The position numbers and the translations under genes are program-made. The notes under the pieces were generated by a model, which searched no databases, was not told the DNA's origin, and saw only the letters and a list, made by a program, of their open reading frames with translations. Below, in pieces: positions 6,006 to 36,682 of a stretch of DNA of 36,682 bases. Each line of letters begins with the position of its first letter. Position 1 is the stretch's first letter. Origin of the DNA: an uncultured Bacteroidia bacterium (GTDB taxonomy: Bacteria > Bacteroidota > Bacteroidia > Bacteroidales > Prolixibacteraceae); NCBI GenBank assembly GCA_903918045.1, contig CAIXCY010000077.1, positions 1 through 36,682 on the forward strand. The letters run 5' to 3'.

Positions 6006-6014
6006 TGCAGTAAA

Positions 6015-8477
6015 CTAAAATGAGTCATTTTCAGTCCGCTCGATCACCTCCTGCTGTAAATCAGCGTTCATATCGTTGAAATAATCGCTGTAACCCGCCA
6101 TCCGAACCAGCAGATCCTTGTAGTCTTCGGGGCATGCCTGGGCGGCAAGCAGGGTCGCTGTATCAACGATATTAAACTGGATATGATGTCCACCAAGGGT
6201 AAAATAACTCCTGATTAGTTGTCCAAGTTTCATGATATCAGCTTCTTTGCGTACCAATCCCGGAAGGAACCGCTGATTCAGCAGTGTCCCCCCTGTTTTG
6301 ACATGATCTATTTTGGTCAGGGATTTTACAACGGCTGAAGGACCGTGGGTATCGGCGCCATGCGAGGGTGATGTGCCGTCGGATATTGATTTTCCGGCTA
6401 GCCGACCATTGGGTGTGGCCCCCATCACTTTCCCAAAATAGACATGGCAGGTGGTTGAAAGCATGTTCAGATGGTATTTCCCTCCCGGTTTGATATTCGG
6501 TTTCCCGTCAATCGTCTCTACAAGGTCATCGAAGACGCGTACGGCTATCGAATCGGCATAATCATCGTCGTTGCCAAAAAAGGGTGTCCTGTTGATGATT
6601 GTCTGACGGAGCATCTCCTCCCCTTCGAAATTTTTGAGTACAGCAGTCAGGACCCGGTCAATACTGAAAGTTTTATCTTCGAATACATGTTTTTTCAGTG
6701 CAGTAAGGCTATCGGTAACAGTTCCAAGTCCGCAACACTGGATATAACTCGTATTATAACGGGGACCTCCATCGTAATAATCCTTGCCCCGGCTGATGCA
6801 GTCATCGATAACCACTGAAAGGAAAGGAGCCGGGGCATATTTGGCAAACATCCGGTCGATATAGTTGCTCACGCGCATCTTCTGATCGACAACGAATTGC
6901 AGTTGTTGCAGAAAAGCGGAATAAAGGGCTTCAAAGGATTTAAAATTTTGCGGATCACCCGTTTGAATACCGACCATTTTCCCGGAGACCGGATTAATTC
7001 CATTGTTGAGGGTGACTTCTAGGATTTTTGGCACATTCAGATAACCGGTCAGAAGGTAGGCTTCTTTCCCAAAGGCGCCCACTTCGATGCAGCCGCTACA
7101 GCCCCCTTCGCGTGCATCGAAGAGTGATTTTCCCTGGCGCAGCAACTCAAGGATATAAATATCGGGATTAAAAACCGAAGGGTAGCCATGTCCCTGACGG
7201 ATTACGCGTGAGGCTGCATTCAGAAATTTATCGGGCGTTTTGGCGCTAATGTGTACTGAACTACCAGGCTGCAGAATATGTAGTTCCTCAATCACCTCAA
7301 GCATGATATACGAAACATCACTGGTTCCGTCAGTTCCATCTCCTTTAACACCTCCAATATTGATGTTAGTAAAATCGTTATAGGTGCCACTCTCTCTCGC
7401 CGTTATTCCAACTTTTGGCGGTGCAGGATGATTGTTTACTTTGATCCAGAAACACGAAATCAGCTCTTTTGCCTGGTCCCTGGTAAGGGTTCCCGCTGCA
7501 ATCTCATTCGTATAAAACGGGTTCAGGTGTTGGTCGAAATGGCCAGGATTCATCGCGTCCCACCCGTTTAACTCTGTAATTGTACCCAAATGGACGAACC
7601 AGTACATCTGTATCGCTTCCCACAGATTTCTTGGAGCATGTGCCGGCACCCACCGGCAAACTTCGGCAATCTTTAATAGCTCGGCAGCTCTTTGTGCATC
7701 AGTCTCTTGAGTGGCAAGAGATTCTGCCAGTTCAGCATGCCGTTCTGCAAAGCATATCGCCGCGTCGCATGAAATGTCCATAGCCTTCCATTGTTCCGCC
7801 TTATCTGTGGCTTCTGGATCGTTGATATAATCGAGATTTTCAAGGTTATCTGCAATCTCATTTTTAAAATCGACCATCCCCTTGCGGTAGATCTTTCCGT
7901 CGAGGGCGGTATGTCCGGGGGCGCGCTGCTCCATAAACTCGGTAAAAAGTCCCGCTTCATAAGCTGCCCGCCACGCATCAGGGACGTGGCTGAAAATCCT
8001 TTCCCGCTGGGTCTTCCCTTTCCAATAGGGGATGACCTCTTTTTCGTAGAGGTCAATATCGCGCTGACTGATTTTATAAGGCTGCATATCACGCGTGTTC
8101 AACACATGAAAGTCTTCGACACTGTGACAGGTGAGCTCGGGAAACGTGGGAATACACTTTGGCTTTGGTCCGCGTTCGCCCACAATCAATTCTCCTTCAC
8201 CAATATACAGCGCTTTCTTTTGGGAATGGTCGAGAAAATTCATTGCCCGTAAAACGGGGATTGAGAACTTCCCGTAGTTTTCCTTGTAGAAGGCGGTTTC
8301 GTGAAGTGCGCGTTCAATTGAAAGGGTCGGAGTGGTTTCAACACTCAGATTTCTGAGTTTCCGGATTCGGTCGTTCATTCCAGGGCTGGATGCTCTTCCT
8401 TTGGATTCATAGAAATTACCCTCTGTTGTGGCTGGTCTTTCAGGAATGGTTGTATGGGGATTTATCTTTTCAAACAT
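6015..8477 (-). CDS. hypD: trans-4-hydroxy-L-proline dehydratase (glycyl radical enzyme)
   Basis: It removes water from trans-4-hydroxy-L-proline to give 1-pyrroline-5-carboxylate, which can be reduced to proline; it is an oxygen-sensitive cytoplasmic enzyme. The 820 residues have the radical Gly795 in VRMAGYSDYF and the thiyl Cys463 in GCSGCIEV, with Glu465 as the base. From memory of the Clostridioides difficile enzyme, further active-site contexts match: EFMEQRAPGH (its Phe152 and His160), WDAMNPGHFDQHLN (Asp278), ESGTYNDF (Ser334 and Phe340), LTGY (Tyr450) and KTGGTLLNQRF (Thr645). Long stretches such as NHPAPPKVGIT also agree, which separates it from glycerol and propanediol dehydratases. 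It has about 30 extra N-terminal residues. The activase gene follows directly. No pyrroline-5-carboxylate reductase gene is in the window. Confidence 0.92.
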   Translation of the reverse strand: MFEKINPHTTIPERPATTEGNFYESKGRASSPGMNDRIRKLRNLSVETTPTLSIERALHETAFYKENYGKFSIPVLRAMNFLDHSQKKALYIGEGELIVGERGPKPKCIPTFPELTCHSVEDFHVLNTRDMQPYKISQRDIDLYEKEVIPYWKGKTQRERIFSHVPDAWRAAYEAGLFTEFMEQRAPGHTALDGKIYRKGMVDFKNEIADNLENLDYINDPEATDKAEQWKAMDISCDAAICFAERHAELAESLATQETDAQRAAELLKIAEVCRWVPAHAPRNLWEAIQMYWFVHLGTITELNGWDAMNPGHFDQHLNPFYTNEIAAGTLTRDQAKELISCFWIKVNNHPAPPKVGITARESGTYNDFTNINIGGVKGDGTDGTSDVSYIMLEVIEELHILQPGSSVHISAKTPDKFLNAASRVIRQGHGYPSVFNPDIYILELLRQGKSLFDAREGGCSGCIEVGAFGKEAYLLTGYLNVPKILEVTLNNGINPVSGKMVGIQTGDPQNFKSFEALYSAFLQQLQFVVDQKMRVSNYIDRMFAKYAPAPFLSVVIDDCISRGKDYYDGGPRYNTSYIQCCGLGTVTDSLTALKKHVFEDKTFSIDRVLTAVLKNFEGEEMLRQTIINRTPFFGNDDDYADSIAVRVFDDLVETIDGKPNIKPGGKYHLNMLSTTCHVYFGKVMGATPNGRLAGKSISDGTSPSHGADTHGPSAVVKSLTKIDHVKTGGTLLNQRFLPGLVRKEADIMKLGQLIRSYFTLGGHHIQFNIVDTATLLAAQACPEDYKDLLVRMAGYSDYFNDMNADLQQEVIERTENDSF

Positions 8478-8838
8478 GATTACTTTTTTAAATGTTCTTT
8501 AATGAAAACGGGACTAAAGGTAGCGCGGATTTATCGCCGGTATAACACAGCGAACCACAACCAGAAGTAAGAGGGGCAGAAGGGAGAATATTCAATTGTA
8601 GAACATCAGGCACTCGAACAAGCGTCTGTAACTTTTAATCAGGGTCGGAATATATATTGGTATTTCCATAATTCCCAAAGCATTTTAGAAAAAACCTTCA
8701 AACGGTTAGCACAGAAAGAAGGAGGAACAAAATTACAAAATATTGAAAATAAATATTTAATATTTCAGTTGTTTAGAGCGAATAAAAACAAAAGTACCAG
8801 GCAGGTTTTTCCTGGGCTCCGGAGATTACTCATAAAAA
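8478..8838. other. Intergenic region between pepP and hypD
   Basis: This 361-nt spacer separates two minus-strand genes. It holds a promoter-like box for hypD (8515-8522). On the plus strand, one frame is open from 8571 to 8882 (103 codons) but has no ATG and runs into the end of pepP; it resembles nothing I know and is not called as a gene. No clear terminator for pepP is visible. Confidence 0.5.
8515..8522 (-). promoter_or_regulatory. Possible -7 box upstream of hypD
   Basis: Read on the minus strand the sequence is TACCTTTA, one base off TAnnTTTG, 37 nt before the hypD ATG. The preceding gene pepP has TACCTTTG in a comparable place. No -33 box was recognised. Confidence 0.3.
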
Positions 8839-10227
8839 TTATCCTTTTGCCCACTCAGCCTCAACCTCTGCAATGCTCTTAGGTTTTGGTTTTCCAAGTA
8901 GCTCATATCCCGATTCAGTTACCAGAAAATCTTCTTCATTGCGGAGTCCTCCAAACGCTTTATACGTTTCTACGCTTTCATAATTGATGTAGTCGCCGTT
9001 GTGGTTTGTTTTTTTCCACTGCTCGATCAGTTCGGGGATAAAATAGATCCCCGGTTCGATTGTGAAAACAAATCCGGGCTCAAGCTTCCTCGCCAATCTC
9101 AGTGACTTCAATCCGAACTGTGTACTTTTCGCCTCGCCTGAATAACCCACGTGTACCTCGCCAAGATCTTCCATGTCATGCACATCCAGCCCCATCATAT
9201 GACCCAGTCCGCAAGGGAAAAACAGCGCATGAGCACCATTTACCAGGGCATCTTCCACATTCCCTTTCATCAATCCAAGATCTTTCAGTCCACGAATGAT
9301 CACCCTCGCCGTTTCAAAATAGACCTCTTTAAAAGGGATGCCTGGTTTGAGCAACGAAATAGCTCGGTTATGGCTATCCAGGCAGATCGAATAGATATCT
9401 TTTTGGCGCGATGTGAAGGTACCATTCACCGGGACGGTGCTTGACAGGTCACCCGCGTACCCCATTTCAGTTTCTGCCCCGGCATCGAGCAGAAACAAAT
9501 CACCATCCTTTAAGACATTACCATGATAATGATTATGAAGTGTTTGTCCGTTTATGGTTGCGATTATGGGAAATGAAATCTGCCCGCCGGAAGCAATGGC
9601 GACCTGTTGTACGGCCCCAGTAATCTGTGCTTCAGTAACACCCGGTTTTGCCATCCGTATAGCGAGCGCATGCATATCGACACTAATGTCGCACGCCCGG
9701 CGGATTTCCAGGATTTCATCCGCCGATTTGTAATTACGTTGGTTAATGACCCCCATGATCAGCTTAAATGATGCCATCCCCTTCGCTTTATCGGGGGCTA
9801 TTTTGAGCCATTCGAAAAGCTTGATCCTGTTCTCTGCCCGGTAGGGTGGTAAGAAATGAACAACCCTCCCTTTGGTAGAAGCGTCTCCCAATAAAACTAT
9901 CAAATCAGAAATATCCCCTGTTTTGGTAACACCCACCTCAAGCGATTGATTGGCAATTGTAGGCTGAGGTCCCATCCATACAAAATCTTCAACAGTAAGA
10001 TCATTCCCGAAAAGTACATCTTCACCTGTTTCGCAATCGAGCATTCCGGCCAGGAATGGGTGGTTCAAACCAAAGAAATAAAGAAAAGTACTATCCTGCC
10101 TGAAATGGTATCCATTATCACCATAATTCATAGGACTTTCATCGTTGCCTAAGAGTAAGATCAATCCTTTACCAACTGATTTACGCAGCTTTTCGCGGCG
10201 CTCAAGGTAAATCATTTTTGAAAACAT
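8839..10227 (-). CDS. pepP: Xaa-Pro aminopeptidase (aminopeptidase P, M24B)
   Basis: Dinuclear metallopeptidase that removes the N-terminal residue when proline, or likely hydroxyproline, is second. The AMP_N domain spans about residues 1-140 and the pita-bread catalytic domain about 175-440. Metal ligands are visible: Asp248 and Asp260 in DAGAETEMGYAGD, His in CGLGHMMGLDVHD, Glu in TIEPGIYF and Glu in RNEEDFLV. I chose the ATG at 10227; an in-frame TTG lies just before it. There is no signal peptide, so it is cytoplasmic. It lies 361 nt upstream of hypD on the same strand. Its substrate class fits a role in freeing Pro/Hyp from imported peptides, but pepP is also a common housekeeping gene. 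Confidence 0.93.
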   Translation of the reverse strand: MFSKMIYLERREKLRKSVGKGLILLLGNDESPMNYGDNGYHFRQDSTFLYFFGLNHPFLAGMLDCETGEDVLFGNDLTVEDFVWMGPQPTIANQSLEVGVTKTGDISDLIVLLGDASTKGRVVHFLPPYRAENRIKLFEWLKIAPDKAKGMASFKLIMGVINQRNYKSADEILEIRRACDISVDMHALAIRMAKPGVTEAQITGAVQQVAIASGGQISFPIIATINGQTLHNHYHGNVLKDGDLFLLDAGAETEMGYAGDLSSTVPVNGTFTSRQKDIYSICLDSHNRAISLLKPGIPFKEVYFETARVIIRGLKDLGLMKGNVEDALVNGAHALFFPCGLGHMMGLDVHDMEDLGEVHVGYSGEAKSTQFGLKSLRLARKLEPGFVFTIEPGIYFIPELIEQWKKTNHNGDYINYESVETYKAFGGLRNEEDFLVTESGYELLGKPKPKSIAEVEAEWAKG

Positions 10228-10307
10228 CAATTTCGTTTTTTTAATGTTCAGGGAAGAATCTGCCCGAAAGGAATTTATAAATGGCGTTCCTTTACCGGTC
10301 GCAGAAT

Positions 10308-10315: not shown

Positions 10316-10327
10316 GATTAAATTTAT

Positions 10328-11006: not shown

Positions 11007-11046
11007 TCAGATAAGCTTATACCATTTGAATAATTTGGGTAAAAGG

Positions 11047-14000
11047 ATGAAAAAACAACAAGATATTAAATTATCAGCTATTATAAAGCTGGTTGGATAT
11101 TGCCTTTTGATTCTTTTTATCTGGAGTTATGTTACTTCACTAAAGTTATTGGCTCAGGATGAGGCCCCTGCTTTTTATCATTATACCAATGAAACAGGTT
11201 TACCTTCATCCTATGTAAAGGGGATTGCCCAGGATCGTTATGGATTTATCTGGTTGGCTACCCGGGTTTCTGTCTGCCGGTTCGATGGGAGTCACTACAA
11301 GGAGTTTCCCGCATTTGACGAAAAGGGGGGGGCGGCGGAACTGCTTTGTAACCGGATCTTTACCTGTCCCGACTCAATGTTAATCTGCAGAACCAAGGAG
11401 GAGAAATATTTTTATTTTGATTTTAATCAGGAGTGTTTTAAATCCTACACACTACTCAACAATATCGGTCCCACCCAGAATATTGAGCCAACAAATGGGG
11501 GATACTGGATTTGTAAGGATAACATTATTTATTTTTTGGATTCAAAAACTGCATTGTTAACTGACATTCGAAAAATGAATCTTTTTAACAAAATCCCGGG
11601 CGATGAATCTTTTCAAATGTTATTTGTCAGGGGCGATCAGTTGATTGCCATAACCGGAAGCCATCAGATTTATTGCCTCGATTTGAAGAATGGCACGCTT
11701 AAATGTCATAAGATCCCCTCAGTATTGGGAAATCAGCCGTTAACTGCACTATATATCGATCATTTGAATTATTTGTGGCTGGATCAGGAGCTTAATGGGT
11801 TATGTCGCATGGATTTGGCTTCGGGGCAGTTTATCCATTTTTCTAAGGACCACTTTGGAAGTACCTTCATCCCTCATAATATGGTCCATTGTTTTTGTGA
11901 GGATAAACAAAACCGATTATGGATTGGAACTGAAGCGGGCTTATTTTTATGGTCAAATGATACCGGAACGTTTTCTTTCCATAAATTCGAACGTAAAAAC
12001 CCCAAAGGGTTAAATGCCGATCCGATCTACAGCTCTCTATGTGATAAAAACGGGAACATTTGGATGGGGACCTATTTTGGGGGGATCAATTTCTGGAGTT
12101 CACAAAAGAGTTTTTTTAAAACCTGGGATTTGGGTACCAATAACTGGCAACTGGGTGGAAATTTAGTGAGTTGTCTTAAAGAAGACAATGAAGGGAATTT
12201 ATGGATTGCCTTTGAAGACATGGGGCTGAACAAACTCAATATCAAAACGGGTGATGTGACCCGATATACCCATAAGGAGGATATGACAGGCCTTTCATAC
12301 AATAATCTTCACGATTTGTTGTTCGTTTCCGACAATGAACTTTGGATCGCGTCTTACACTGGTGGCATCAATATCCTGAATCCCAAAACCGGCAAATTCA
12401 GTTTTATCAACCAGAAAAACAACTCAGAACTTCCCTCTGACAATATCTATGCCTTTTCCCGCTCGGGCAATTCCATCTTTATATCAACCTCTCTGGGAAT
12501 TGCCATTTTCGATATTAATACCCGGAAGTTGTCGAAATTCAAACCCAATCAGATCGGGGATATTCAGTTTGAATCAATTTGCAATTCGGGCAATAAAACC
12601 TGGTTCTCATCCCATAAAAATATTTATTCTTATGATGCGTTTACCGATTCATTAATCCGCTTTGACAAGATACCCCAGATGACCCAGATCAACTTTGTGA
12701 AAACAGACTCCAAAGGGAGGATCTGGATTGGTGACTGTTATAACGGACTATGCTATTTGAATCAAAAGAGCAATGAAATTGTCCCTTTCAACAAGGGTAA
12801 TAATTTTCCTGCATCGTGGATTTTTAGTCTGGAAGAGGATAAAAACGGGTTGATTTGGGTAAGTACCGAAAACGGGTTGATCAAAATTGACCCTGAATTA
12901 AATGAATTCATGTTGTTTGATGGCAACTCCGGGACCTCTTTTGGGCAGTTTAATTTCAGGGCCTCCTATGTTGACAGGCGCGGGAATCTCTATTTTGGGG
13001 CAAATAATGGGATGGTTTCATTTAATGAGAATGATAATCCGAATGTTTCGACGGATAAACCAATCATCTTTACGGGTATGCAGTTGTTTAACAAGCCCGT
13101 ACAGCCAGGCAAGAATACTCCGCTGAATAAATCGATAAATGATGTAGATAAGGTTATTCTGGATTACGATCAAAACGTTTTCACACTTGAATTTACCTCT
13201 TTTAATTTCTCAACCCATGGTTATGGCAATTATGCCTACTATTTGGAAAACTTTGAGAAAAACTGGAATTTCGTCGGCAACCGAACCTTTGCCACCTATA
13301 CCAATATGAGTCCCGGAACCTATTTCTTTCATGTGAAGGGTTCATCAAACAACCTGATGAGTAATTCAGAGGAGAGGGTGTTGAAAATTGTAGTAAGGCC
13401 TCCATTTTATCTTTCGGTTTGGGCCTTTCTGATCTATTTTATAGTTGTCTGTTTAATCGCCATTATTTTGTATATGATTGGAAAACGGCTCGAGAAGTCG
13501 AAGGCCCTGGTTACTTTTGAGCGGCTTGAAAAAGAGCATGCGGAGGAGATAAATCAGGTAAAGCTCGATTTTTTTACCAATATTTCGCATGAACTGAGAA
13601 CACCTCTTACCTTAATTCTGGGCCCTTTGAGCAAAATGATGGAAGAGGAAAAGCTAAGCCCTTTTTTCAGAAAGCGGTTGATGGGAATAGAGAACAACGC
13701 CAGGCGACTCTTTAACCTGATTAATCAGTTGCTCGAATTCCGAAAAATCGAAAGTGGGAAAGAGTGCCTTCAAGTTTCGCAATACGATATCCGGCTTTTG
13801 GCAGAGGAGATCAGAGCATCATTTGAGTCAATTTCCGAGTCCCGGGATGTCAACTTCAGGCTCAATTTTCCGCCCGGAGAAACTCTTGTTTGGTTCGATA
13901 CAAACCGAATTGAAAAGATAATATTCAACCTGCTTTCGAATGCATTTAAGTTTACGGATGATGGCGGATCTGTTGAACTTACCCTTGCCGTTGTCAGACG

Positions 14001-20334: not shown

Positions 20335-21015
20335 ATGAAAAATTTAATATTATTTCTTCTGCTTGCAATTGTTGTGATCAGCTTTTCATGCACTAAAAAT
20401 AGTGTAATTGACGGTGGTCTGAGCAAGGCAGAGGTGAACATGTCAACATTGGATTATCTGAAAACAACGCCACACCACCAGTTCGACACACTGCTTATCC
20501 TTCTGCATGCTGCCGGGATTGATCAGGAGGTAAATAAGGCTAACCAAACATTTGTTGCGCCTACCGATTATGCATTCAGGAATTTCATTATCGAAAAACA
20601 GGCCGCCCTCCGTATCATCTATAATGATGAAAATTATGTTTATAATTATGACAGTTTGAAAAACGAAATTGTGAATTATAAAGACACCTTGCGGATGTAT
20701 TTGATCCCGGGTGACATAAATCGGGCTGACCTGATATCACCGCGCCTTACAAAAAGCACTTCAAATGTTAATGTTGCTTTGCAGCTTATTAAAAGCAAAC
20801 TCTATACTGAGTGGGTTCCTAATTCGATACCGGAGTTTCTATGGTTCTCCAAAGTTGTCAACGGGTTCGATAAACCTAATGATATTACTATTCCGCTTGA
20901 GGATCAGGACCCGATAAGCCGTTGCCAAACCAGTGGAATTATCACTACTACGGGAATATTGCATGTGTTGGATGATGACCATATTTTTGGATTCAGACAT
21001 CATATAGCACAATAA
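20335..21015 (+). CDS. Fasciclin (FAS1) domain lipoprotein in the SusE position
   Basis: The 226 residues begin with a lipoprotein signal (lipobox VISFSC, Cys19). One FAS1 domain spans about residues 38-215: STLDYLKT, FDTLLILLHAAGIDQEVN, then TFVAPTDYAFRNFI, and near the end TSGIITTTGILHVLDDD, which correspond to the conserved H1 and H2 regions. It sits 34 nt after susD, where surface glycan-binding proteins are usually encoded, so it is probably an exposed binding or adhesion protein. FAS1 proteins mediate adhesion in other systems; the ligand here is unknown. Identification rests on motif pattern, not on a search. Confidence 0.8.
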   Translation: MKNLILFLLLAIVVISFSCTKNSVIDGGLSKAEVNMSTLDYLKTTPHHQFDTLLILLHAAGIDQEVNKANQTFVAPTDYAFRNFIIEKQAALRIIYNDENYVYNYDSLKNEIVNYKDTLRMYLIPGDINRADLISPRLTKSTSNVNVALQLIKSKLYTEWVPNSIPEFLWFSKVVNGFDKPNDITIPLEDQDPISRCQTSGIITTTGILHVLDDDHIFGFRHHIAQ

Positions 21016-22103: not shown

Positions 22104-22196
22104 TTACCTTCAATCTTGTGATCAATACAAAATCTGATTTAAAATGCCATTTACAGTATACCATCCGCTGAAATTCTGTTGATTATAAATATATAT

Positions 22197-27168: not shown

Positions 27169-30057
27169 ATGAAGAAACTATTTTATGCCTTTTTAATTCT
27201 GGTTAGTTCAAATTCATTGGTAATTGGTGCTAATTATTTGAAAAATGATAAAATCGCTGCCAGTTTTGATGGAAAAGGGATGGTCTCAATCTTTGATAAA
27301 AGCATCGGATCATCCATTTACCTGGAAAGTGACGACACCCAGCTTTCAATTGATAATAAGAATATTGATTTTGTAAATATTATCCCGATAAGAATTAAAA
27401 AAGAGGAGCAATCGATCTCCTATATCTATTCCCAAAATGGATATGATATTGAAATCAAATATGAACTACAGGCCGGATGGCGCTTTATCTCAAAGCAGAT
27501 TTTAATTAACTCTTTAACGCAGCGCGAGTTTATTGTAAATAGCATCCAGCCGCTCTCCACGCAAATCAAAAATGAGATCAGGGATCATCTGTCCTTATCA
27601 AACAGCAAGTACGGAATTTCGCTTCGGTTCAGTGGTTATGAGAAAAATAAAAATGGGTTTGGCTGCTTCGTGACCGTTCAAAATCCCTTCACAAAATATA
27701 TTCTTACCCAAAATAAAGTTTCGGTAGTCTATAATCCTGAAATAAAGTGGAATAAAAAAGACGGTCAATTCTTATCAGATAGATTGTGCCTGGGATTTAC
27801 CGAACTTACCGGGATTACCGTGCGGACTTCAATGCTGCCTGAATGGAATTACATCGAAGACCCCGATAGTTTCATTAGAGAGGGTGAACAGATTGACCGG
27901 GGAGAAATTGATGCTTTGGCGAAGTGCATACACGCTTTTTTGCTCGTTGATCCTCAGAAGAGTGTACGCGTCCACGTCGGCTGGTGCGAGAACGATTACC
28001 AGATAGATATTTCCTCAAAAGAGGGTAATAAAGAGTATAAAAGGATCATTGATCAGGCTGCAGCGCTAGGTTGTGAGCATGTGCTGTTTACCCCTGCCAA
28101 TGATCTGGTTGCATCCGTAAGTGAGAACAGGGATGCCTGGAGTTGGGAAAATGTCCTCTGGTTTAACCTTGGGCAGAAGATCAGAAAAGGGGAGTGGAAG
28201 CCGGGCGATCAATTACCGGAAACTGTAAAGGATATTGTTGATTACGCCAGATCTAAGAAAATAGGGTTACTGGGTTATGTGTACCCATCGATGCCTTTCA
28301 TGCAAAACCCCGAATGGACAGCCTGGAGAACTTCAAACAATAAAGAGGTCGGAGGATATCTTACCGTAGATACCGGTCTGAGAAGTTACCAGGACTGGCT
28401 GGTAGATCAGCTAATTGCATTTTCTAAAGAGACAGGTTGTTCAGGATTTTCCTTCGATCATTGGTGGATCGCCTACAACAATGAAGCTGACGATAAAAAC
28501 GTTATGGTCTCAAGTCACTATCAGCAATGGTACGGCTGCCGAAGAATCCTGGAACTGCTTCGGGAGCGCGCCCCAGGGTTGGTTATTGACGGAAGACAGC
28601 AATATCATCAGTTTGGGACCTGGACCTGGCTGGCAGGGACCTACCCCCATCCAACAATGTCAGACGAACAACCTGGTAGTTTCAACGCCATCACCGATTT
28701 AAGTACCGATCGGGTGAGCGCTGCAAGACAACGATCAGTCGCTTACAGGCTGATGATCAACGATTTTATTCCCATTGAGATCATGCCAGGCTTTATGACT
28801 CACCAAACTCAGCGTATTGATGCGGCAGAGGTTATGCATCGTGATCATTTCCGGGTCCGGGACTGGGACTATTTCGGATGGAAATTCAGCCTTCTTTCGT
28901 CCATCTCCACTGCCCCCTTTAACCACGTTGTCAACTATATCCCGGCCAGGGATCAGAATGAATACAATGCCTTTTCAGCAGAGGATAAAGCCTTCTTTAA
29001 TTACTGGCTCGATTTTACAGATAACAACATCGATTATTTACGAAATATTAAACCCATTCTTGGTCAACCCATGGTTGGAAAGTGTGATGGGACAAGCGCA
29101 ATCATTAAAGACAAGGGTTATATTTTCGTTTTTAATCCCAATTACCGTGAACTCAAAACGAGTATCCGACTCGACCAGTCAATCGGACTTACATCCGGTA
29201 AATCATTTATTTTAAAGGAGATATATCCGGAAAAAGAGGAGATTCAGCAGGGTATACTTTTATTTGGCAGGAAAATAGAATTAAATATGCCCGGCATCGG
29301 GGTTAGAATTTTCAAAATTGAACCCACTGAATCGGGCAATAAACCAATCCTTATTAATTGTTCGGGTCACCTGGTTGCAGAAGCTGATAAAATCAGTGTA
29401 ACCGATATTACAGGAATAGCAGGCTCGGAAAAAACGATATCGGTTATTCTTCCCCGGAAAACGAAGATAAAAGAGTTTACCGTGAATGATAAAAAAGTCG
29501 ATTTTTCCCAGTCAGAGAATAAGGTTACCACTACCATTCAGTTTAAAGGTGATTATTTTCCGAAAGCATTCAGCTTAATGAAATATGATAAACTGTTTAA
29601 AGGCGACAGCATCACAACTTCATTAGTTATTCCGGACAGGATAATTAATCAGTTAAACAGAAGAAGGATTTCGTGGCCCGTGACTTACACCGATGATGAT
29701 AAAATTGCCCCCTGGCTGGACCCGTCCCGCTTACTGCTATATATTCAAATTGCGCAACCATATAGGAAGGTTGAGGAACTGAATGGGACGGAGAAAGTTT
29801 CGCGTCAGATGCCAATTCGCAAAGGAGAATATTCATTAACTATTGATGGAAAACCGGTCGAACTCAACGAGGCTTATAATGGCGTTTATCCCAATGTAGA
29901 AAGGACAAACCTGGGCGTTTTTGCAGATATCACCTTGCTAAAACCTGGTGTTTCTCATCAACTTACCATTAAATTGCCTGCAGGGCTTAAACCCGGTCAG
30001 TTCCAGGGTATTTTTATTGATCATATTGAAGATGAAATTACAACAGAGATAAACTAA
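27169..30057 (+). CDS. Putative secreted TIM-barrel glycoside hydrolase, family not recognised
   Basis: The 962 residues start with a signal peptide (ends about residue 20, VIGAN). An N-terminal beta-sandwich (about 22-235) precedes a barrel-like region (about 255-640) with HVGWCENDYQ, CEHVLFTPAND, GFSFDHWWI (Asp430), LVIDGRQQYHQFG (Asp474) and HPTMSDEQPG (Asp499, Glu500). This layout, with Asp at barrel-strand ends, recalls clan GH-D (GH27/GH36-like), with Asp430 as possible nucleophile. Beta-rich C-terminal domains (about 655-960) follow. I cannot assign a GH family. It is in an operon with DUF1680 enzymes on both sides, so it presumably cleaves another linkage of the same glycan. Confidence 0.6.
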   Translation: MKKLFYAFLILVSSNSLVIGANYLKNDKIAASFDGKGMVSIFDKSIGSSIYLESDDTQLSIDNKNIDFVNIIPIRIKKEEQSISYIYSQNGYDIEIKYELQAGWRFISKQILINSLTQREFIVNSIQPLSTQIKNEIRDHLSLSNSKYGISLRFSGYEKNKNGFGCFVTVQNPFTKYILTQNKVSVVYNPEIKWNKKDGQFLSDRLCLGFTELTGITVRTSMLPEWNYIEDPDSFIREGEQIDRGEIDALAKCIHAFLLVDPQKSVRVHVGWCENDYQIDISSKEGNKEYKRIIDQAAALGCEHVLFTPANDLVASVSENRDAWSWENVLWFNLGQKIRKGEWKPGDQLPETVKDIVDYARSKKIGLLGYVYPSMPFMQNPEWTAWRTSNNKEVGGYLTVDTGLRSYQDWLVDQLIAFSKETGCSGFSFDHWWIAYNNEADDKNVMVSSHYQQWYGCRRILELLRERAPGLVIDGRQQYHQFGTWTWLAGTYPHPTMSDEQPGSFNAITDLSTDRVSAARQRSVAYRLMINDFIPIEIMPGFMTHQTQRIDAAEVMHRDHFRVRDWDYFGWKFSLLSSISTAPFNHVVNYIPARDQNEYNAFSAEDKAFFNYWLDFTDNNIDYLRNIKPILGQPMVGKCDGTSAIIKDKGYIFVFNPNYRELKTSIRLDQSIGLTSGKSFILKEIYPEKEEIQQGILLFGRKIELNMPGIGVRIFKIEPTESGNKPILINCSGHLVAEADKISVTDITGIAGSEKTISVILPRKTKIKEFTVNDKKVDFSQSENKVTTTIQFKGDYFPKAFSLMKYDKLFKGDSITTSLVIPDRIINQLNRRRISWPVTYTDDDKIAPWLDPSRLLLYIQIAQPYRKVEELNGTEKVSRQMPIRKGEYSLTIDGKPVELNEAYNGVYPNVERTNLGVFADITLLKPGVSHQLTIKLPAGLKPGQFQGIFIDHIEDEITTEIN

Positions 30058-30074
30058 ATTTGAATTATTACACC

Positions 30075-33000
30075 ATGCTAGCACTGAAAATACGGCAGAT
30101 TCTCCTGCTCCTCCTTTTTAATGCGCTTCCGGCATTGCTTTCCGTAGCTACTGCAAATAGTTATCATGAAAGAGATTCAAATCTTGCCCGAAGTGCGACC
30201 ATAACCACCTCTTATGTTTCGGGTTGGGAGAACCTGAATTCGGTAAATGATGGTTTTTCACCTGCAGGCTCACATGACAGGTCACACGGCATTTACGGAA
30301 ATTACAGTACTAACAATACATTTCAATGGATACAGTATGAATGGCCCAAAAGATATAAGCTCAATTCGACGGAGATTTATTGGTTTACCGATGATGGAGG
30401 GTTATTAATCCCTGATTCGGCATCCATTGAATATTGGGATGGAAATAGTTGGTTAAAAGCCGGAGCCCTGGGGGTAGAAAAGGATAAATTCAATTTCCTT
30501 CCGCTTAACGGGATAGTCACCAGTAAGGTTAGGGTTCTTATGAAAAATAGTTCCCAATCCACAGCTGTAATTGAATGGAAGGTGGCAGGGGAAAGCAACC
30601 TTCCTGCGGCAATCTGGTCAAATAGCTCTTTTGCGATGAATGGACTTACACAGTTTCTTCAGGTCCCGTCCGGCATACTTCGGGGAGCAAAAGATTTTGC
30701 CATCTCTTTTTGGGTAAAGATCAATACTTCAGAAGGGGGAAAAACGATAATTGACTTTGGAGCAAACAAAACCAATCGCTTATTTATCAGTGGGAAAAGC
30801 GACGCAAATAGTCTGAGGTACACTATTTCAACGTCAGGTCCGGCCGGTACGCAATATGTTGAAGGCCCTGTCGGTAAACCTCTCAAAACAGGAACCTGGC
30901 AGCATATATTAGTCAGTCAGACCGGGAATATTTGCATCCTGTATTTGAATGGGACCGAAATAGGGAGGAACTCAAAAATGATCTTGAATCCTTCAAAACT
31001 TGGTACACTGGTAACTAATTTCATCGGAAAATCACAAAACGGAGATTCATTTCTGGATGGACAGATAAAAGAGTTTAAACTGTTTGCAACTCCCCCATCG
31101 GAAGAACAGATACCGGAACTACTGCTGACAAAAAATGCCTCACAACCCTCTCCTGCTGACAAATGGCATATCATTGAGTCGGGTGTGAAGCCACGATTAA
31201 GCTGGACTCCGGCTACTTTTTTTACCGGTTACAATATCTATTTAAGCAACTCGTTTGATGAGGCAGCCAAAGGTTCAGTTCCGACACTCCAGGGAATCGA
31301 TGAAGGGACCAATTCTGTCGAAATACCTATTCAACTGGTTGTTGGAAACACCTATTACTGGAGGGTTGATGTTATTAATGGTTCCGAGACAAGGAGAGGC
31401 GAAGTCTGGAAATTCCGCTTTGTGCCACCCAAAATGAAAGTCTTTCTTTTAGGAGGACAGTCAAATATGGTGGGATGTTCCCCGTTAAAGGGGGTTCCTG
31501 ATAGTCTGAATCATGACTATGAAAATGTAATGATTTATGCTTCAGGCGAAATAGCTCCGTGCCATTTGGAATCATGGGGCAATCTAAAAAGCGGAATGGG
31601 GACTAATGCAAATTACTTTGGCCCGGAGCTAACCTTTGGTCCGGCTATGGCTGGTTATTTTCCACAAGAGAATATTGTTTTGATCAAATGTGCCTGGGGG
31701 GGAACAAATCTTTGGTCGCAGTGGCGTCCTCCGGGCTCGGGGGGTAAAGTGGGGGATTTATATACCAGCTTTGTAAAGCGTATCCGCAAAGGACTAGACT
31801 CCTTGCCAGCGGAAGCAAAACCCGAAATTGCCGGGATGATCTGGATGCAGGGTGAGTCTGATGCCTTTGCTCCCCATTCCGATGAATATGAGTTTAATTT
31901 GTCGAATCTGATAAAGGATATCCGCTCAGAATTCAATCTCCCTGGTATGCCATTCGTGATCGGACAAATAAACAATGCCCCAGCCTGGCCCGACAGTGCA
32001 AAGGTGAAAAAAGCACAATTGAATGTAAGTCTCAAAGTTCCAAATACAGGATTGGTTACAACCACTGACTATCTTTTGTGTGATCCCTACCATTATGACG
32101 CAGCAGGACAATTATCTCTGGGCAAACGTTTTGCTTTAAAAATGGTTGAATTGCTCAGAGGAGATAATGAGCAGGGAGCATTATCCAAGGAATACTTAGT
32201 GCCTGATACATTAAGATTTAGCCCATTTATTTGGAAATCAACGCTGCCCGCCAAATCCCCTTTTAAACAATCAAAACAATTCACCAGTCTGGCATTCCTG
32301 GGTTATAAAAGCGGATTTCACTATGGTGACACATGGTATCCTTCGTGGGCAGAAGATGACAAAATGTATTCACCATGGACCGATGGCAACACCTGGCGGT
32401 TGGATGGGAATTGGGAAGAGGCCTCTTCCGGAACTGATGAACGGGCAGCCACAGGGAATGGCGTGATCGAAGGGGATGACCCAATGACACTAAAGGCCTA
32501 TAGCATTGGAATCGAAAAAGCCTCTGCTCTACCCTATCATGGAAGATATCCCGCAGGAACCCTTGTTTTTAATAAAGTGTGGTATTACGGAACTTATTGC
32601 CTCGATCCTTCAGGGTGGGCTAAATATGGAAATAGCAGGATCAACTGGCCCTGGATGGGCCCATTTGTCGGATTCAGATATTCCACAGATTACGGTAAAA
32701 GCTGGACAGCCTGCCCCCTTACACCCGAAAAGCCGCTGTTTAGGGAGACTGGGATAAATGGATATCCTGTCAAAATCGGTGCACCCCATTTTGTAGATTT
32801 CGGAAAGAATATGGAGCATTCCCCTGATGGTAAAGCTTACCTTATCGCTCACGGAGCCGATATTAACGACCTTACACCCCGATTCTGGAATGACAGTTGG
32901 ATAAACGGCGATCAAATCTACCTGCTTAGAGTGACACCCTCCATTGAAAATATGAACGACCTGTCGAAATACGAGTTCTTTGCAGGGAATGACAAAGCAG

Positions 33001-33395
33001 GGAATCCACAATGGACCAACGATTTTAGTCATATTAAACCACTTATCGAATGGGATAACAACATGGGTTGTGTTACCGTTACCTATAATGCCCCTTTGAA
33101 GAAATTTCTAATGTGCATTACCGATGGTGGAAACACATGTTCCAAAATGAACACCTATATCCTTGAATCGGATAAATTAACAGGGGAGTGGAAAGTTATT
33201 ACTTATATGAAAGATTTTGGGGAGCAGGCCTATTTTGTGAATATCCCCTCAAAATTTATCAGTAAGGACGGTTTAAAATTCTGGCTGGCCTATTCCGGCA
33301 ATTTTGCAACAGACTGGAATGGAATGAAAATCATAGCAAATCCTCCCGGAAGTCACTATGGACTTGTATTACAAAAAGTTGAATTACTTAAATAA
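30075..33395 (+). CDS. Mosaic protein: discoidin-like and LamG modules, SGNH acetylesterase, C-terminal propeller-like domain
   Basis: I use ATG 30075 (MLALKIRQILLLLL), 17 nt after the previous stop, giving 1106 residues with a signal peptide. Module order: discoidin-like domain (about 38-180, ending IEWKVAGE); LamG/concanavalin-like domain (about 185-345); Fn3-like linker (about 360-450, YYWRVDVINGSE); a sialate-O-acetylesterase/CE6-type SGNH domain (about 455-700) with GGQSN (Ser463), IWMQGESDA and DPYH (Asp670, His673); and a C-terminal domain (about 725-1106) with YGDTWYPSWAEDDKMYSPW and FNKVWYYGTYCL, which looks like a beta-propeller hydrolase of DUF4185/GH43-like type. The esterase presumably removes acetyl groups so that the glycosidase domain or neighbours can act. 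The C-terminal assignment is uncertain. Confidence 0.75.
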   Translation: MLALKIRQILLLLLFNALPALLSVATANSYHERDSNLARSATITTSYVSGWENLNSVNDGFSPAGSHDRSHGIYGNYSTNNTFQWIQYEWPKRYKLNSTEIYWFTDDGGLLIPDSASIEYWDGNSWLKAGALGVEKDKFNFLPLNGIVTSKVRVLMKNSSQSTAVIEWKVAGESNLPAAIWSNSSFAMNGLTQFLQVPSGILRGAKDFAISFWVKINTSEGGKTIIDFGANKTNRLFISGKSDANSLRYTISTSGPAGTQYVEGPVGKPLKTGTWQHILVSQTGNICILYLNGTEIGRNSKMILNPSKLGTLVTNFIGKSQNGDSFLDGQIKEFKLFATPPSEEQIPELLLTKNASQPSPADKWHIIESGVKPRLSWTPATFFTGYNIYLSNSFDEAAKGSVPTLQGIDEGTNSVEIPIQLVVGNTYYWRVDVINGSETRRGEVWKFRFVPPKMKVFLLGGQSNMVGCSPLKGVPDSLNHDYENVMIYASGEIAPCHLESWGNLKSGMGTNANYFGPELTFGPAMAGYFPQENIVLIKCAWGGTNLWSQWRPPGSGGKVGDLYTSFVKRIRKGLDSLPAEAKPEIAGMIWMQGESDAFAPHSDEYEFNLSNLIKDIRSEFNLPGMPFVIGQINNAPAWPDSAKVKKAQLNVSLKVPNTGLVTTTDYLLCDPYHYDAAGQLSLGKRFALKMVELLRGDNEQGALSKEYLVPDTLRFSPFIWKSTLPAKSPFKQSKQFTSLAFLGYKSGFHYGDTWYPSWAEDDKMYSPWTDGNTWRLDGNWEEASSGTDERAATGNGVIEGDDPMTLKAYSIGIEKASALPYHGRYPAGTLVFNKVWYYGTYCLDPSGWAKYGNSRINWPWMGPFVGFRYSTDYGKSWTACPLTPEKPLFRETGINGYPVKIGAPHFVDFGKNMEHSPDGKAYLIAHGADINDLTPRFWNDSWINGDQIYLLRVTPSIENMNDLSKYEFFAGNDKAGNPQWTNDFSHIKPLIEWDNNMGCVTVTYNAPLKKFLMCITDGGNTCSKMNTYILESDKLTGEWKVITYMKDFGEQAYFVNIPSKFISKDGLKFWLAYSGNFATDWNGMKIIANPPGSHYGLVLQKVELLK

Positions 33396-33405
33396 CTATT
33401 TTAAG

Positions 33406-35844
33406 ATGAATATCAGAAATATGGTCATTCGAAAAGGTATGTTTATTGGAACTCTAACCGGGTTAGTACTGACCGTTTTAATCGGTTCTAAATGCGTTGC
33501 CCAAACCAAAAAGGGGGTTTACCCGATCCTTCCGGTTCCATTTACTTCGGTGCAGGTAAACGACTCCTTCTGGGGGCAGCGGCTGAAGGCCAGCCGCGAG
33601 GTAACTATTCCACTGGCATTCAGAAAATGTGAGGAGACGGGTCGATACCAGAACTTTGTGAAAGCGGCTCACCCCAGCGAATCCTATAAAGTTGAAGGAT
33701 TTTCATTCGACGACACCGATGTGTATAAAACGATTGAGGGTGCAAGTTACTCGATGCAAACTTTTCCGAATAAAAAACTGGATAAATATATTGATAGTGT
33801 GTTGGTTATTGTTGCAGCTGCACAAGAACCTGACGGTTATCTTTATACTTCCCGTACCATGAATCCCAAACATCCGCACGAATGGTCCGGTACTAAACGG
33901 TGGGAAAAAGAGGAGGATCTAAGCCACGAATTATATAATCTTGGGCACATGGTCGAAGGGGCTATTGCCCATTATCAGGCGACCGGAAAAAGAAATTTCC
34001 TTGATATTGCCATCAAATATGCCGACTGCGCCGTTCGTGAAATCGGGAGTAATCCGGGACAGGTGGTTGTGGTTCCGGGGCATCAGATTGCTGAAATGGC
34101 CCTTTCCAAACTTTATGTTGTAACAGGGGATAAGAAATATCTCGATCTGGCAAAATTTCTCCTCGATAAACGGGGGTATACCCAGCATAAGGATGAATAT
34201 AGTCAGGCACATAAACCTGTTTTGGAGCAGGATGAAGCGGTGGGGCATGCTGTCCGGGCCGCCTATATGTACTCCGGAATGGCCGATGTTGCGGCGCTGA
34301 CCGGTGATCAGGGATACATTGATGCCATCGACCGCATTTGGGGAAATATTGTAGGTAAGAAACTCTATCTCACCGGGGGCATCGGGGCTACCGGAAGTGG
34401 CGAGGCATTTGGCGCTAATTATGAATTGCCCAATATGTCAGCCTATTGTGAGACCTGTGCGGCAATTGGAAATGTGTACCTCAATTACCGCCTGTTTCTG
34501 CTTCATGGAGAAGCCAGATATTTTGATGTCCTTGAACGTACTCTTTATAATGGGCTTATCAGCGGCGTGTCACTCGATGGAGGTAGCTTCTTTTACCCCA
34601 ATCCATTGGAATCTATTGGTCAGCATCAGCGTCAGCCCTGGTTCGGCTGCGCCTGTTGTCCATCCAATATCTGCCGGTTTATCCCCTCTGTTCCGGGATA
34701 TATCTACGCCACTCATAACAATGAGGTGTACGTTAATCTCTTCATGGCAAACAACGCCGAAGTAAAAGTAAACGGTAAGCCTGTTACCCTGAAACAGACC
34801 ACCACTTACCCCTGGAGTGGAGATGTAAGCCTTGAAATTGCATCTAAAGGGAAACAGAATATTAACCTTAAAATCCGGATTCCAGGATGGGTCAAGGGAG
34901 AAGTTGTCCCGGGTAACCTGTATAGCTATAATGATAAAAAAACCTTGGGGTACAGCATAAAGGTGAATGGTCAAAAAGTCGAAAGTTCACTTGAAAAGGG
35001 CTATTTCACGATTAACCGCGCCTGGACAAAAGGGGACAAGGTAGAGATTCACTTCGATATGGAACCTCGTACCGTAAAAGCCAACCAGGCAGTGCAGGCC
35101 GACAGGGGAAAGATTGCAGTAGAACGGGGGCCGCTGGTTTATTGTGCCGAATGGCCGGATAATGATTTCAGCGTTTTAAGCCTGATCCTGAACAAAAAAC
35201 CGCAGTTCACAATCGAACACCGTCCGGAATTACTCTATGGAATTGACATACTAGCTACAGATGCTCAACTGCTTAGCTATGATGTTCATGGCCGTCTTGT
35301 GGCAAAAGATGTGAAACTGAAGATGATTCCTTATTATGCCTGGGCGCACAGGGGGAGCGGTGAGATGGCTGTCTGGCTATCCAATGAGTTAAGTTCGACC
35401 CGGCCGGTTATGCCTCCAACCATCGCTTCTGAAAGTAAAATTGATGCTTCACACAAAGCGAAGTCTATCTCCGCCATTCATGATGGACTCGTTCCAAAAG
35501 ACGAAAATGACCGCTCCATTCCCTATTACCATTGGTGGCCCAAAGAAGGGACCACAGAATGGATTTCGTATGATTTCGGTTCTGAAAAATCGGTCAGCCG
35601 CTCAACTGTTTATTGGTTCGACGACGGTCCATGGGGTGGATGCCGCGTACCTCAATCATGGAAAATATTCTACAAGGATAACAGCGGAGCATGGTTTCCC
35701 GTTGAAAATACGACCTCCTTTGGCGTCGAAAAAGGGATAGGAAATGAAGTGATTTTTAAACCGGTTACAACCAAGACGGTAAAAATTGAAGTAAAACTTC
35801 CCGAAAAATATGCAACAGGGATCTTTGAATGGGAGGTGGAGTAA
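33406..35844 (+). CDS. DUF1680 glycoside hydrolase, GH127-type, with C-terminal discoidin-like module
   Basis: I start at ATG 33406, 10 nt after the previous stop; an earlier in-frame ATG at 33358 would overlap that gene by 38 nt and push the signal peptide inward. The 812 residues have a signal peptide ending CVAQ. The catalytic barrel shows the GH127 signatures DTDVYKTIEGASYSM, SHELYNLGHMVEGAIAHYQ and the active-site set Glu333 (GEAF, acid/base position), Glu349 and Cys351 in ETC, and Cys417-Cys418 in GCACCPSN. The 16-residue spacing between the two Glu equals that of Glu322 and Glu338 in HypBA1. A C-terminal module (about 685-812) with RSTVYWFDD resembles the N-terminal module of the preceding protein. 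Likely activity: beta-L-arabinofuranosidase. Confidence 0.92.
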   Translation: MNIRNMVIRKGMFIGTLTGLVLTVLIGSKCVAQTKKGVYPILPVPFTSVQVNDSFWGQRLKASREVTIPLAFRKCEETGRYQNFVKAAHPSESYKVEGFSFDDTDVYKTIEGASYSMQTFPNKKLDKYIDSVLVIVAAAQEPDGYLYTSRTMNPKHPHEWSGTKRWEKEEDLSHELYNLGHMVEGAIAHYQATGKRNFLDIAIKYADCAVREIGSNPGQVVVVPGHQIAEMALSKLYVVTGDKKYLDLAKFLLDKRGYTQHKDEYSQAHKPVLEQDEAVGHAVRAAYMYSGMADVAALTGDQGYIDAIDRIWGNIVGKKLYLTGGIGATGSGEAFGANYELPNMSAYCETCAAIGNVYLNYRLFLLHGEARYFDVLERTLYNGLISGVSLDGGSFFYPNPLESIGQHQRQPWFGCACCPSNICRFIPSVPGYIYATHNNEVYVNLFMANNAEVKVNGKPVTLKQTTTYPWSGDVSLEIASKGKQNINLKIRIPGWVKGEVVPGNLYSYNDKKTLGYSIKVNGQKVESSLEKGYFTINRAWTKGDKVEIHFDMEPRTVKANQAVQADRGKIAVERGPLVYCAEWPDNDFSVLSLILNKKPQFTIEHRPELLYGIDILATDAQLLSYDVHGRLVAKDVKLKMIPYYAWAHRGSGEMAVWLSNELSSTRPVMPPTIASESKIDASHKAKSISAIHDGLVPKDENDRSIPYYHWWPKEGTTEWISYDFGSEKSVSRSTVYWFDDGPWGGCRVPQSWKIFYKDNSGAWFPVENTTSFGVEKGIGNEVIFKPVTTKTVKIEVKLPEKYATGIFEWEVE

Positions 35845-35923
35845 TCCGGGATGTAAAAACTTGAATTATAACAGATTATTTTATTTTTCAGTCTAAATAA
35901 TGATATTTCCAGCAATTTTATAA

Positions 35924-36682
35924 ATGAGAAAAACTGTTCTATTAGTTTTGACTACGCTTTTCCTAACGGGTGGGGTTGTTTCTGCACAGTCGGGGGACTA
36001 TAAAATTACACCCGTTCCCTTTAGCAAGGTTCACTTGGATGATAAATTCTGGACCAAGAGGATACAAACCAATAAAGAGGTTACCATCCCAATCGCCTTT
36101 GGATATTGTGAATCCACTGGACGAGTCAACAATTTCAAAATTGCCGGCGGTCTGATGAAGGGCAAATTCCAATCAGGTGCCCCTTTTGATGATTCCGACG
36201 TTTCAAAAATTATTGAAGGGGCTGCCTATTCCTTAAGCTCAGCTCCCGATCCCAAACTTGAAGCTTATGTTGATTCGCTGATCTATTTTATCGGAAAGGC
36301 CCAGGAGCCAGATGGTTACCTCTATACCTACCGCACAATAATGGGCAATGATTCGCATCCCTGGATTGGCAGTAAAAGGTGGGAAAAAACCCATATCCTG
36401 AGTCACGAACTCTACAATCTGGGACACATGTATGAGGCGGCTGTAGCCTATTATGAGGCGACGGGCAAACGTAACCTGCTCGATATTTCTCTCAAAAGTG
36501 CAGATCTGGTGGCCAAAGATTTTGGCTGGGATGCACTCAGAAGCTATCCCGGACATCAGGAGATCGAGATCGGTTTAGCGAAGCTGTACCGCGTGACGGG
36601 AAATAAAAAATATCTTGATTTAGCCAAATTCTTCCTCGACGCCCGTGGGAAATGTGGTTTTGAGGGGACCACCTACAACCAG
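35924..36682 (+). CDS. DUF1680 glycoside hydrolase, GH127-type (3' part outside window)
   Basis: I translated it from ATG 35924; 253 codons are in the window with no stop. The signal peptide is MRKTVLLVLTTLFLTGG ending VSAQ. The mature start ITPVPFSKVHLDDKFWTKR, then DDSDVSKIIEGAAYSL, AQEPDGYLYT, LSHELYNLGHMYEAAVAYYEATGK and YPGHQEIEIGLAKLYRVTG are the N-terminal half of the GH127 barrel. The catalytic Glu/Cys residues lie beyond the window, so activity cannot be judged. It is paralogous to the gene 79 nt upstream and closer than that gene to the common GH127 pattern (PGHQEIEIGL). Same predicted role. Confidence 0.9.
   Translation, partial: MRKTVLLVLTTLFLTGGVVSAQSGDYKITPVPFSKVHLDDKFWTKRIQTNKEVTIPIAFGYCESTGRVNNFKIAGGLMKGKFQSGAPFDDSDVSKIIEGAAYSLSSAPDPKLEAYVDSLIYFIGKAQEPDGYLYTYRTIMGNDSHPWIGSKRWEKTHILSHELYNLGHMYEAAVAYYEATGKRNLLDISLKSADLVAKDFGWDALRSYPGHQEIEIGLAKLYRVTGNKKYLDLAKFFLDARGKCGFEGTTYNQ

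Follow-up and report, generated by a model that had tools for sequence, protein, structure and literature searches.

A beta-L-arabinofuranosidase locus beside a hydroxyproline dehydratase in a Prolixibacteraceae bacterium: a candidate system for whole use of hydroxyproline-rich glycoproteins

We analysed a stretch of 36,682 nucleotides from an uncultured Prolixibacteraceae bacterium (contig CAIXCY010000077.1; hereafter the window), in which genes for a predicted trans-4-hydroxy-L-proline (Hyp) dehydratase, HypD, and its activating enzyme lie beside a polysaccharide utilisation locus (PUL) rich in putative beta-L-arabinofuranosidases. The window is a complete contig (C77) of the host draft genome G000 (5.36 Mb, 281 contigs). 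Its genes of interest form two divergent halves, a minus-strand activase/hypD/pepP group and, with a hybrid two-component system regulator (HTCS) starting 796 bp away, the plus-strand PUL (Table 1). Pfam searches found a SusC/SusD pair, carbohydrate-active enzymes and a local regulator (the HTCS) in this second half, as expected of a PUL, and all four of its glycoside hydrolases (GHa to GHd) carry the PF07944 (DUF1680) catalytic domain with 169-438 bits. An earlier note, made from the DNA alone, had described two GH146-like and two GH127-type DUF1680 enzymes with SusCD and an HTCS next to hypD, its activase and an Xaa-Pro aminopeptidase, in halves about 0.8 kb apart; this description was confirmed in both respects, the fourth glycoside hydrolase (GH) being cut by the contig end.

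Table 1 Genes of the hypD group and of the PUL in the window.
Feature	Coordinates	Strand	Evidence
HypD-activating radical SAM enzyme (activase)	5097..6005	-	NF043069 T4HPD_activ_SAM is top NCBIfam match, 346 bits, under the 425 cut-off
HypD, trans-4-hydroxy-L-proline dehydratase, glycyl radical enzyme	6015..8477	-	NF043068, 1172 bits (cut-off 1100)
PepP-type Xaa-Pro aminopeptidase	8839..10230	-	AMP_N + M24
HTCS	11026..15132	+	Reg_prop, Y_Y_Y, HisKA, HATPase_c, Response_reg, HTH_18
SusC-like TonB-dependent transporter	15526..18792	+	Plug + CarbopepD_reg_2
SusD-like lipoprotein	18804..20300	+	SusD-like_3 + SusD_RagB
FAS1-domain protein	20335..21015	+	PF02469; position shared with related PULs
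DUF5007 protein	21037..22035	+	PF16398; position shared with related PULs
GHa, GH146-like beta-L-arabinofuranosidase	22179..24560	+	PF07944 (412 bits), GH127M, DUF6805
GHb, second GH146-like beta-L-arabinofuranosidase	24807..27140	+	PF07944 (438 bits), DUF6805
962-aa orphan without family	27169..30057	+	
SASA esterase + LamG + DUF4185-like fusion	30060..33395	+	PF03629, PF13385; PF13810 weak, under cut-off
GHc, GH127 beta-L-arabinofuranosidase, F5/8-type C domain	33358..35844	+	PF07944 (421 bits)
GHd, GH127-type, cut by contig end	35924..36682	+	PF07944 (169 bits, up to profile position 208)

The identity of the HypD enzyme is strongly supported by its sequence, and dehydration of Hyp is its predicted reaction. 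Its best match in the PDB was the HypD structure 6vxc (975 bits), and equivalents of all ten residues compared in that alignment by eye were kept (H160, D278, S334, D339, F340, C434, E436, Y450, T645 and G765). These comprise the glycyl radical, the thiyl cysteine and the Hyp-binding residues tested in PMC7077986 (this and the other papers cited were available in part, and what is said of them refers to those parts). To compare neighbours, 133 distinct hypD loci were collected (distinct by HypD residues 61-360), 102 of them of clade-i, which is window-like, and 31 of clade-ii (~52% identity). An activase was found within 6 kb of hypD in 93/102 clade-i and 29/31 clade-ii loci, and in the window it directly adjoins hypD. 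PepP, the second commonest neighbour family of clade-i hypD, was found on the same strand within 6 kb in 10/102 and 3/31 loci, the window counted; it was dropped as a linking gene for being too general. A proC gene is present elsewhere in the genome. Among named records the nearest HypD proteins belong to metagenome-assembled genomes (MAGs) titled Bacteroidia, Bacteroidales or Prolixibacteraceae, and from HypD itself together with these record titles the host would be an anaerobic freshwater Prolixibacteraceae-like bacterium.

The best PDB match of both GHa and GHb was 5opj (526 and 470 bits, respectively), with the ExC and CC motifs visible by eye in GHa and motifs likewise visible in GHb. 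GHc matched 6ex6 best (1108 bits) and, in an alignment with HypBA1 (3wkw) read by eye, retains E322, E338, C340, C417 and C418, for which we assume the residue numbers and roles known from HypBA1. We take 6ex6 to be BT3674 and 5opj to be BT0349. GHd ends ahead of the active-site motifs, its full form in the sibling genome G011 having 811 aa. The Zn-Glu-Cys site of such enzymes is described in PMC10850190, where specificity also differs within both GH127 and GH146; for the enzymes of the window, action on Hyp-linked arabinosides as opposed to aceric acid, arabinan or arabinogalactan is a prediction. SusC is 93% identical to its counterpart in G011 and 57% to that in G036, the remainder of the matches listed reaching at most 38%. 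Over residues 22-1368, the HTCS shares 55% identity with the one adjacent to hypD in the genome G054.

G011 was the nearest sibling found (HypD 95% identical), and its synteny with the window covers positions 5099-24572 and 33382-36682 at 88-93% nucleotide identity. Because this synteny begins at the 3' end of the activase gene, the activase, hypD, pepP and the PUL form one conserved block. After GHd, the G011 locus continues with a GH146, a GH43-LamG protein, a GH27 alpha-galactosidase, an S9 peptidase with a DPPIV_N domain and a 295-aa HExxH protein. All but the last of these are found in the same order on another contig of the host genome, C98 (the 3' part of the GH146, GH43, GH27 and an S9 gene truncated where the contig stops), with protein identities of 91-97%. 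In G011 coordinates C98 starts ~3.1 kb past the end of the window, and from these alignments it is very likely that the PUL of the window continues onto C98. In the S9 peptidase on C98, which has DPPIV_N and Peptidase_S9 domains, the serine (GGSAGG), aspartate and histidine are present by eye. When it was aligned to 2d5l, the region of the double-glutamate N-terminal anchor, presumably the motif of exo-dipeptidyl peptidases, fell in an alignment gap.

The combination of a beta-arabinofuranosidase, an S9/DPP-IV-type peptidase and HypD with its activase was found in five ARRANGEMENTS (G000/G011, G054, G519, G121 and G244). Four of these use clade-ii hypD (~52% identical), that of G000/G011 being clade-i, and single-block descent therefore does not explain the recurrence. 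In G054 the whole set lies on one strand, in the order SusC-SusD-GH146-GH43-DUF5695-GH27-S9-HExxH-HTCS-activase-HypD (clade-ii)-PepP. The order in G519 is GH146 (62% to GHa)-S9 / HExxH-M24 / HypD-activase-GH127, the last cut by the contig end, and in G121 it is GH127-GH43-S9 / activase-HypD. G244 has PepP-HTCS / activase-HypD, followed by a lipoprotein-like gene, SusC, a 625-aa gene in the SusD position and a BT_3987-like gene, and then by GH97, S9, GH127 (72% to GHc), M64 (63% to the M64 of G036), a further GH127 and a gene 27% identical to GH43. In addition, G467 carries a HExxH peptidase and M24 next to an activase at a contig end. Outside the order, in G591 (L311 302-13000), an S9 gene (53%) and a GH127-fold/LamG enzyme lie beside genes of the epimerase route, namely an amino-acid permease, a D-amino-acid dehydrogenase-like gene, a 4-hydroxyproline epimerase (589 bits, cut-off 376) and an aldehyde dehydrogenase, neither dehydrogenase reaching an equivalog cut-off. 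Since the epimerase stands there, another Hyp pathway replaces HypD beside the S9 and GH127-fold pair. That comparable gene sets recur in relatives in different orders suggests that the pathway is real and the proximity not due to chance.

Next door to the G054 locus lie a gene with an AraC-like end, a DHDPS-family gene, an aldehyde dehydrogenase, a 4-hydroxyproline epimerase (576 bits, cut-off 376) and a D-amino-acid dehydrogenase-like gene, so that hypD and epimerase-route Hyp genes share a single neighbourhood in that genome (L116/L239).

Linkage of the peptidase to hypD was measured in 393 genomes of the order, with at most two candidates scored per genome and with G054 and G011 outside the sample. 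HypD over the cut-off was found in 128 of these genomes (134 at E 1e-200), and S9 matches at E 1e-150 or better in 37, at 38 places. Of the 24 genomes having both, 6 had S9 no more than 11 kb from hypD, against 0.17 expected (P ~1.5e-8 under random placement, which ignores operon clustering and relatedness). The distances were 67 bp in G334, 304 bp in G234, 1.0 kb in G253, 1.4 kb in G121, 2.3 kb in G519 and 10.5 kb in G244; in G370 the two were 33 kb apart, and in the remaining genomes they were farther apart or on separate contigs. GH127 or GH146 is also present in three of the six linked genomes (G121, G519 and G244). A DUF1680 gene was thus near hypD in 3/6 loci with S9 and in 0/130 without it, the window omitted (Fisher p 5e-5), a test that counted G244 through a GH 12.7 kb off and whose control loci had unequal flanks. 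With the window among the controls the latter count became 1/131 (p 2e-4). A fairer comparison, limited to DUF1680 within 10 kb in loci of the same order, gave 2/6 against 0/51 (p 0.009), and p rises to 0.03 on the assumption of a single DUF1680-positive control, for G011.

The bare adjacency of hypD and DUF1680 genes behaved otherwise. In the stretches read it was seen in 2/133 distinct loci (the window and G121), 79 of the 133 being from named records, including some whose titles place them in other phyla, with unequal flanks of 1.95 Mb overall. The stretches of G011 (L190, which ends in SusC) and G054 (L076) were scored negative and without DUF1680, respectively, having ended before theirs. 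From a density of 124 hits per ~86 Mb in 18 genomes of the genus, 2-3 such genes would be expected over this flank by a hand-summed count, were that density to hold at all loci, and adjacency was rejected as proof of linkage. The earlier note had proposed that recurrence of hypD and activase beside such PULs be compared with expectation; for the raw pair there was no enrichment, whereas the trio with the S9 peptidase does recur. Its caveat that the halves may be neighbours by chance retains force in that bare adjacency proves little, and loses it in view of the block conserved in G011 and of an S9-hypD linkage far above expectation. As a separate observation, a hypD fragment (238 aa, 62%) directly follows the S9 gene in G281 (L293 10174-10890), whose genome gave no HypD match at E 1e-200.

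Taking these results together, we consider with a probability of about 0.65 that the locus lets an anaerobic member of the Bacteroidales use, as a whole, the extensin-type hydroxyproline-rich glycoproteins (HRGPs) found in plants or green algae. The HTCS would sense a released sugar or glycopeptide and switch on the PUL. GH43 would take off outer alpha-arabinofuranose (Araf), the GH127 and GH146 enzymes would trim the beta-L-Araf chain down to Hyp and GH27 would remove alpha-galactose (Gal) from serine, these activities being predicted from the families found. Fragments would be imported by SusCD. The bared Pro/Hyp-rich chain would be cleaved by the S9/DPP-IV-type peptidase, joined in G011 by the HExxH peptidase, and a cytosolic PepP would complete the X-Pro and X-Hyp peptides, the specificities again being presumed from family. 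HypD, made a radical by its activase, would then convert trans-4-hydroxy-L-proline into pyrroline-5-carboxylate, and ProC, encoded elsewhere, would yield proline. The Ser-Hyp4 repeats of extensin carry alpha-Gal on serine and, on Hyp, 1-5 Araf residues, and extensin-type material makes up most of the wall of Chlamydomonas (PMC5371791); because of this decoration, GH27, GH127/GH146 and GH43 together fit extensin. Action of GH43 on outer alpha-Araf and of GH146 on Araf-beta1-Hyp has been reported (PMC6085000, PMC10850190). The peptidases (S9 with DPPIV_N, M24, and M64 or HExxH) point to a proline-rich chain, and the presence of peptidases and an alpha-galactosidase in the PUL would fit a glycoprotein target better than arabinan. 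On this reading the substrate would be an extensin-type HRGP rather than arabinogalactan protein (AGP) or arabinan, the halves would be co-regulated and freed Hyp would feed HypD. The interpretation of HRGP use in the earlier note thus gains support from the recurring trio, the PUL peptidases and GH27, with the substrate still inferential.

The specificity of the HExxH peptidase is a guess from sequence. Among 12 homologues, six matched the M34 model PF07737 up to E 0.1, and the resemblance to M34 (Pro-Pro endopeptidase-like) is weak, the best match having an E of 3.8e-5 and 23.9 bits, under the cut-off of 27.4. Nothing significant was found for it in the PDB (best E 0.24; profile search E 0.021). 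Both M34 and M64 are listed among the families having post-proline cleaving members (PMC9147577). A broader proposal seems to us an even bet: that this is a kind of locus consuming a whole glycoprotein, in which O-glycans are removed, the chain is cut by proline-specific endo- and exopeptidases and the very amino acid that bore the glycan, in its modified form, is catabolised. Bacteroidota living on the Hyp-rich walls of plants or volvocine algae would have assembled it repeatedly out of varying components (either hypD clade, HExxH or M64, GH27 or GH97, and HypD or the epimerase route), and the HExxH protein would be a Hyp-Hyp/Pro-Pro endopeptidase.

Beyond the low count of bare adjacency, several observations weigh against the whole-use reading. 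The two halves are divergent and need not be co-regulated. No G000 match to the HExxH protein was found at E 1e-30, though C98 stops within the S9 gene, and of eight genomes of the order with this protein at 53% identity or more, HypD or activase adjoins it in just two, G519 and G467. No GH121 beta-arabinobiosidase was among the Pfam hits for the window, C98 and the scanned G011 proteins, no search directed at GH121 having been made and ~3.1 kb of the region being unread in G000. The trio is found in a minority of cases: in the stretches read at 22 of the 38 S9 places, 7 had DUF1680 and 6 an intact HypD, leaving 15 and 16 without. PULs of this type occur with no hypD nearby in G075 and G303, genomes without a HypD match, and in G356, where HypD is on another contig. 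Conversely, the HypD-S9 loci of G234, G253 and G334 have no arabinofuranosidase in the stretch, so that the peptide half may have collagen or other peptides as further targets.

The last point leads to the rival that we would turn to first, unlikely as it is: a general cassette of S9, M24 and HypD for scavenging Pro/Hyp peptides, standing beside various PULs as peptidases commonly do in these genomes. Such a cassette agrees with G234 and G253, where S9, HypD and PepP occur with no GH found in the stretch, and with the rank of PepP among clade-i neighbours; it leaves unexplained why DUF1680 at hypD tracks S9 in the same-order comparison, and why the GH families match HRGP glycans one by one. 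Somewhat less probable again, in our estimate, is that the halves met by chance, a beta-arabinofuranosidase PUL for pectic arabinan or rhamnogalacturonan (RG) caps having landed by a hypD-pepP cassette for free Hyp or collagen peptides. Of six other genomes of the genus with HypD over the cut-off, only G011 shares the layout, and one close hypD copy of G013 (C250, L037 3103-7546, 93%) has a fragmented pepP and no PUL in its 14.5-kb contig; divergence and the rarity of adjacency would also be expected, and the best match of GHa and GHb is the GH146 enzyme of an RG-I PUL (PMC10850190). Mere chance would hardly, however, produce the S9-HypD linkage, the recurrence of the trio in five arrangements across both hypD clades, peptidases and GH27 within the PUL itself, or the coupling of an S9/GH127-fold pair to a 4-hydroxyproline epimerase in G591.

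The least probable of these alternatives ties Hyp catabolism to AGP, which is also Hyp-rich, in place of extensin-type glycans. GHc is indeed closest to 6ex6, a GH127 enzyme reported to help degrade larch arabinogalactan, and a GH146 of Bifidobacterium longum acts on AGP (both PMC10850190). Against this, no enzyme for the backbone or side chains of type II arabinogalactan (GH16, GH30, GH35 or GH2) was among the Pfam hits for the window, C98 and the scanned G011 proteins, with the same ~3.1 kb between C77 and C98 unread in G000; several beta-Araf enzymes, one GH43 and a GH27 are found instead. Beyond GHc no hit supported a type II arabinogalactan reading, which was set aside.

The glycan side of HRGP use is already known from Bifidobacterium and Xanthomonas, and what appears new is that a PUL extends to the backbone of the protein and to the modified amino acid within it. 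The PULs of Bacteroides thetaiotaomicron share the SusCD/HTCS logic of the window. They hold the enzymes closest to its GHs among solved structures, BT0349 (GH146) and BT3674 (GH127) by the locus tags that we presume, and we know of no Hyp catabolism in them. Unlike the window, they are reported for RG-I/arabinan and arabinogalactan (PMC10850190). The HypBA1/HypBA2/HypAA cluster of B. longum similarly combines GH127 and GH43 for Hyp-linked arabinosides (PMC7263609, PMC10850190, PMC6085000), and a GH146 of that species acts on Araf-beta1-Hyp (PMC10850190, PMC6085000); it differs in ABC import and a GH121 arabinobiosidase, and the available text describes it for sugar use with no mention of a peptidase or Hyp catabolism. 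In Xanthomonas euvesicatoria, XeHypAA/BA1/BA2 provide GH43 and GH146 for Ara-Hyp of extensin (PMC6085000, PMC10850190), and a putative prolyl oligopeptidase gene, reported as frameshifted, adjoins xehypAA (PMC6085000). A GH121 is present there, and neither hypD nor SusCD is mentioned in the parts available. Gut anaerobes have the same HypD and activase with the same catalytic residues (C. difficile HypD, 6vxc), described for Hyp itself (PMC7077986), whereas the HypD of the window adjoins a glycan locus. For aquatic anaerobes, algal extensin use via GH127 was predicted in Latescibacteria (WS3) of an anoxic lake or lagoon (PMC4454575), as a genome-wide inventory whose available part mentions no locus and no hypD.

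In titles and abstracts, with most subscription papers outside the scope, we found none joining hypD or Hyp catabolism with a PUL, in agreement with the earlier note, to which such a locus was not known. Extensin degradation is little known, above all in anaerobes (PMC4454575), and nothing was found in the literature searched on anaerobic use of the HRGP protein backbone, which is little described. HRGPs, extensins among them, occur as cross-linked proteins in the walls of plants and are the main wall material of Chlamydomonas (PMC5371791). Described HRGP systems recover arabinose; with a locus of the window type, a route from HRGP to hydroxyproline would become open to direct testing, HypD would have a likely Hyp source other than animal collagen, and candidates for Hyp-specific peptidases would be at hand.

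Some further features of the locus went beyond the earlier note, namely the continuation on C98 and, between the GHs, the 962-aa orphan and the SASA/LamG/DUF4185-like protein, an esterase fusion inside a beta-arabinofuranosidase PUL. Searches with the orphan were negative in Pfam (below E 0.1), in the PDB (up to E 1) and, at E 1e-20, among the family's other 139 genomes; its predicted structure (pLDDT 33) was unusable and was left uninterpreted. Together with GHb and the SASA protein it makes up a stretch lacking in the G011 PUL, where GHb is a remnant. The G011 HTCS (L112 8635-12740) reads as two open reading frames and may be broken or an assembly error. No RNA elements or tRNAs were detected in the window at the thresholds applied. 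Left of the block, beyond the G011 synteny, lie a cut S46 dipeptidyl-peptidase (3-2132; Dpp7-like, under cut-off) and a LruC-domain protein (2688-4901).

Other observations concern hypD itself. The second hypD copy of G013 (C260, 87%) has a full-length pepP match. Clade-i hypD at 77-79% identity also occurs in MAG records titled Desulfuromonas/Desulfuromusa, Melioribacteraceae and KSB1, the same set (L170, L172-L175, L180, L186, L192 and L199) including Neomarinimicrobiota, Gemmatimonadales and Krumholzibacteriia; either transfer or mis-binned contigs would account for these records. Near clade-ii hypD, a 348-aa gene of cluster c7 was found in 6/31 loci (such as L087 and L302), and a gene that looks c7-like (L302:5482-6525) matched trans-3-hydroxyproline dehydratase/proline racemase best, under the cut-off.

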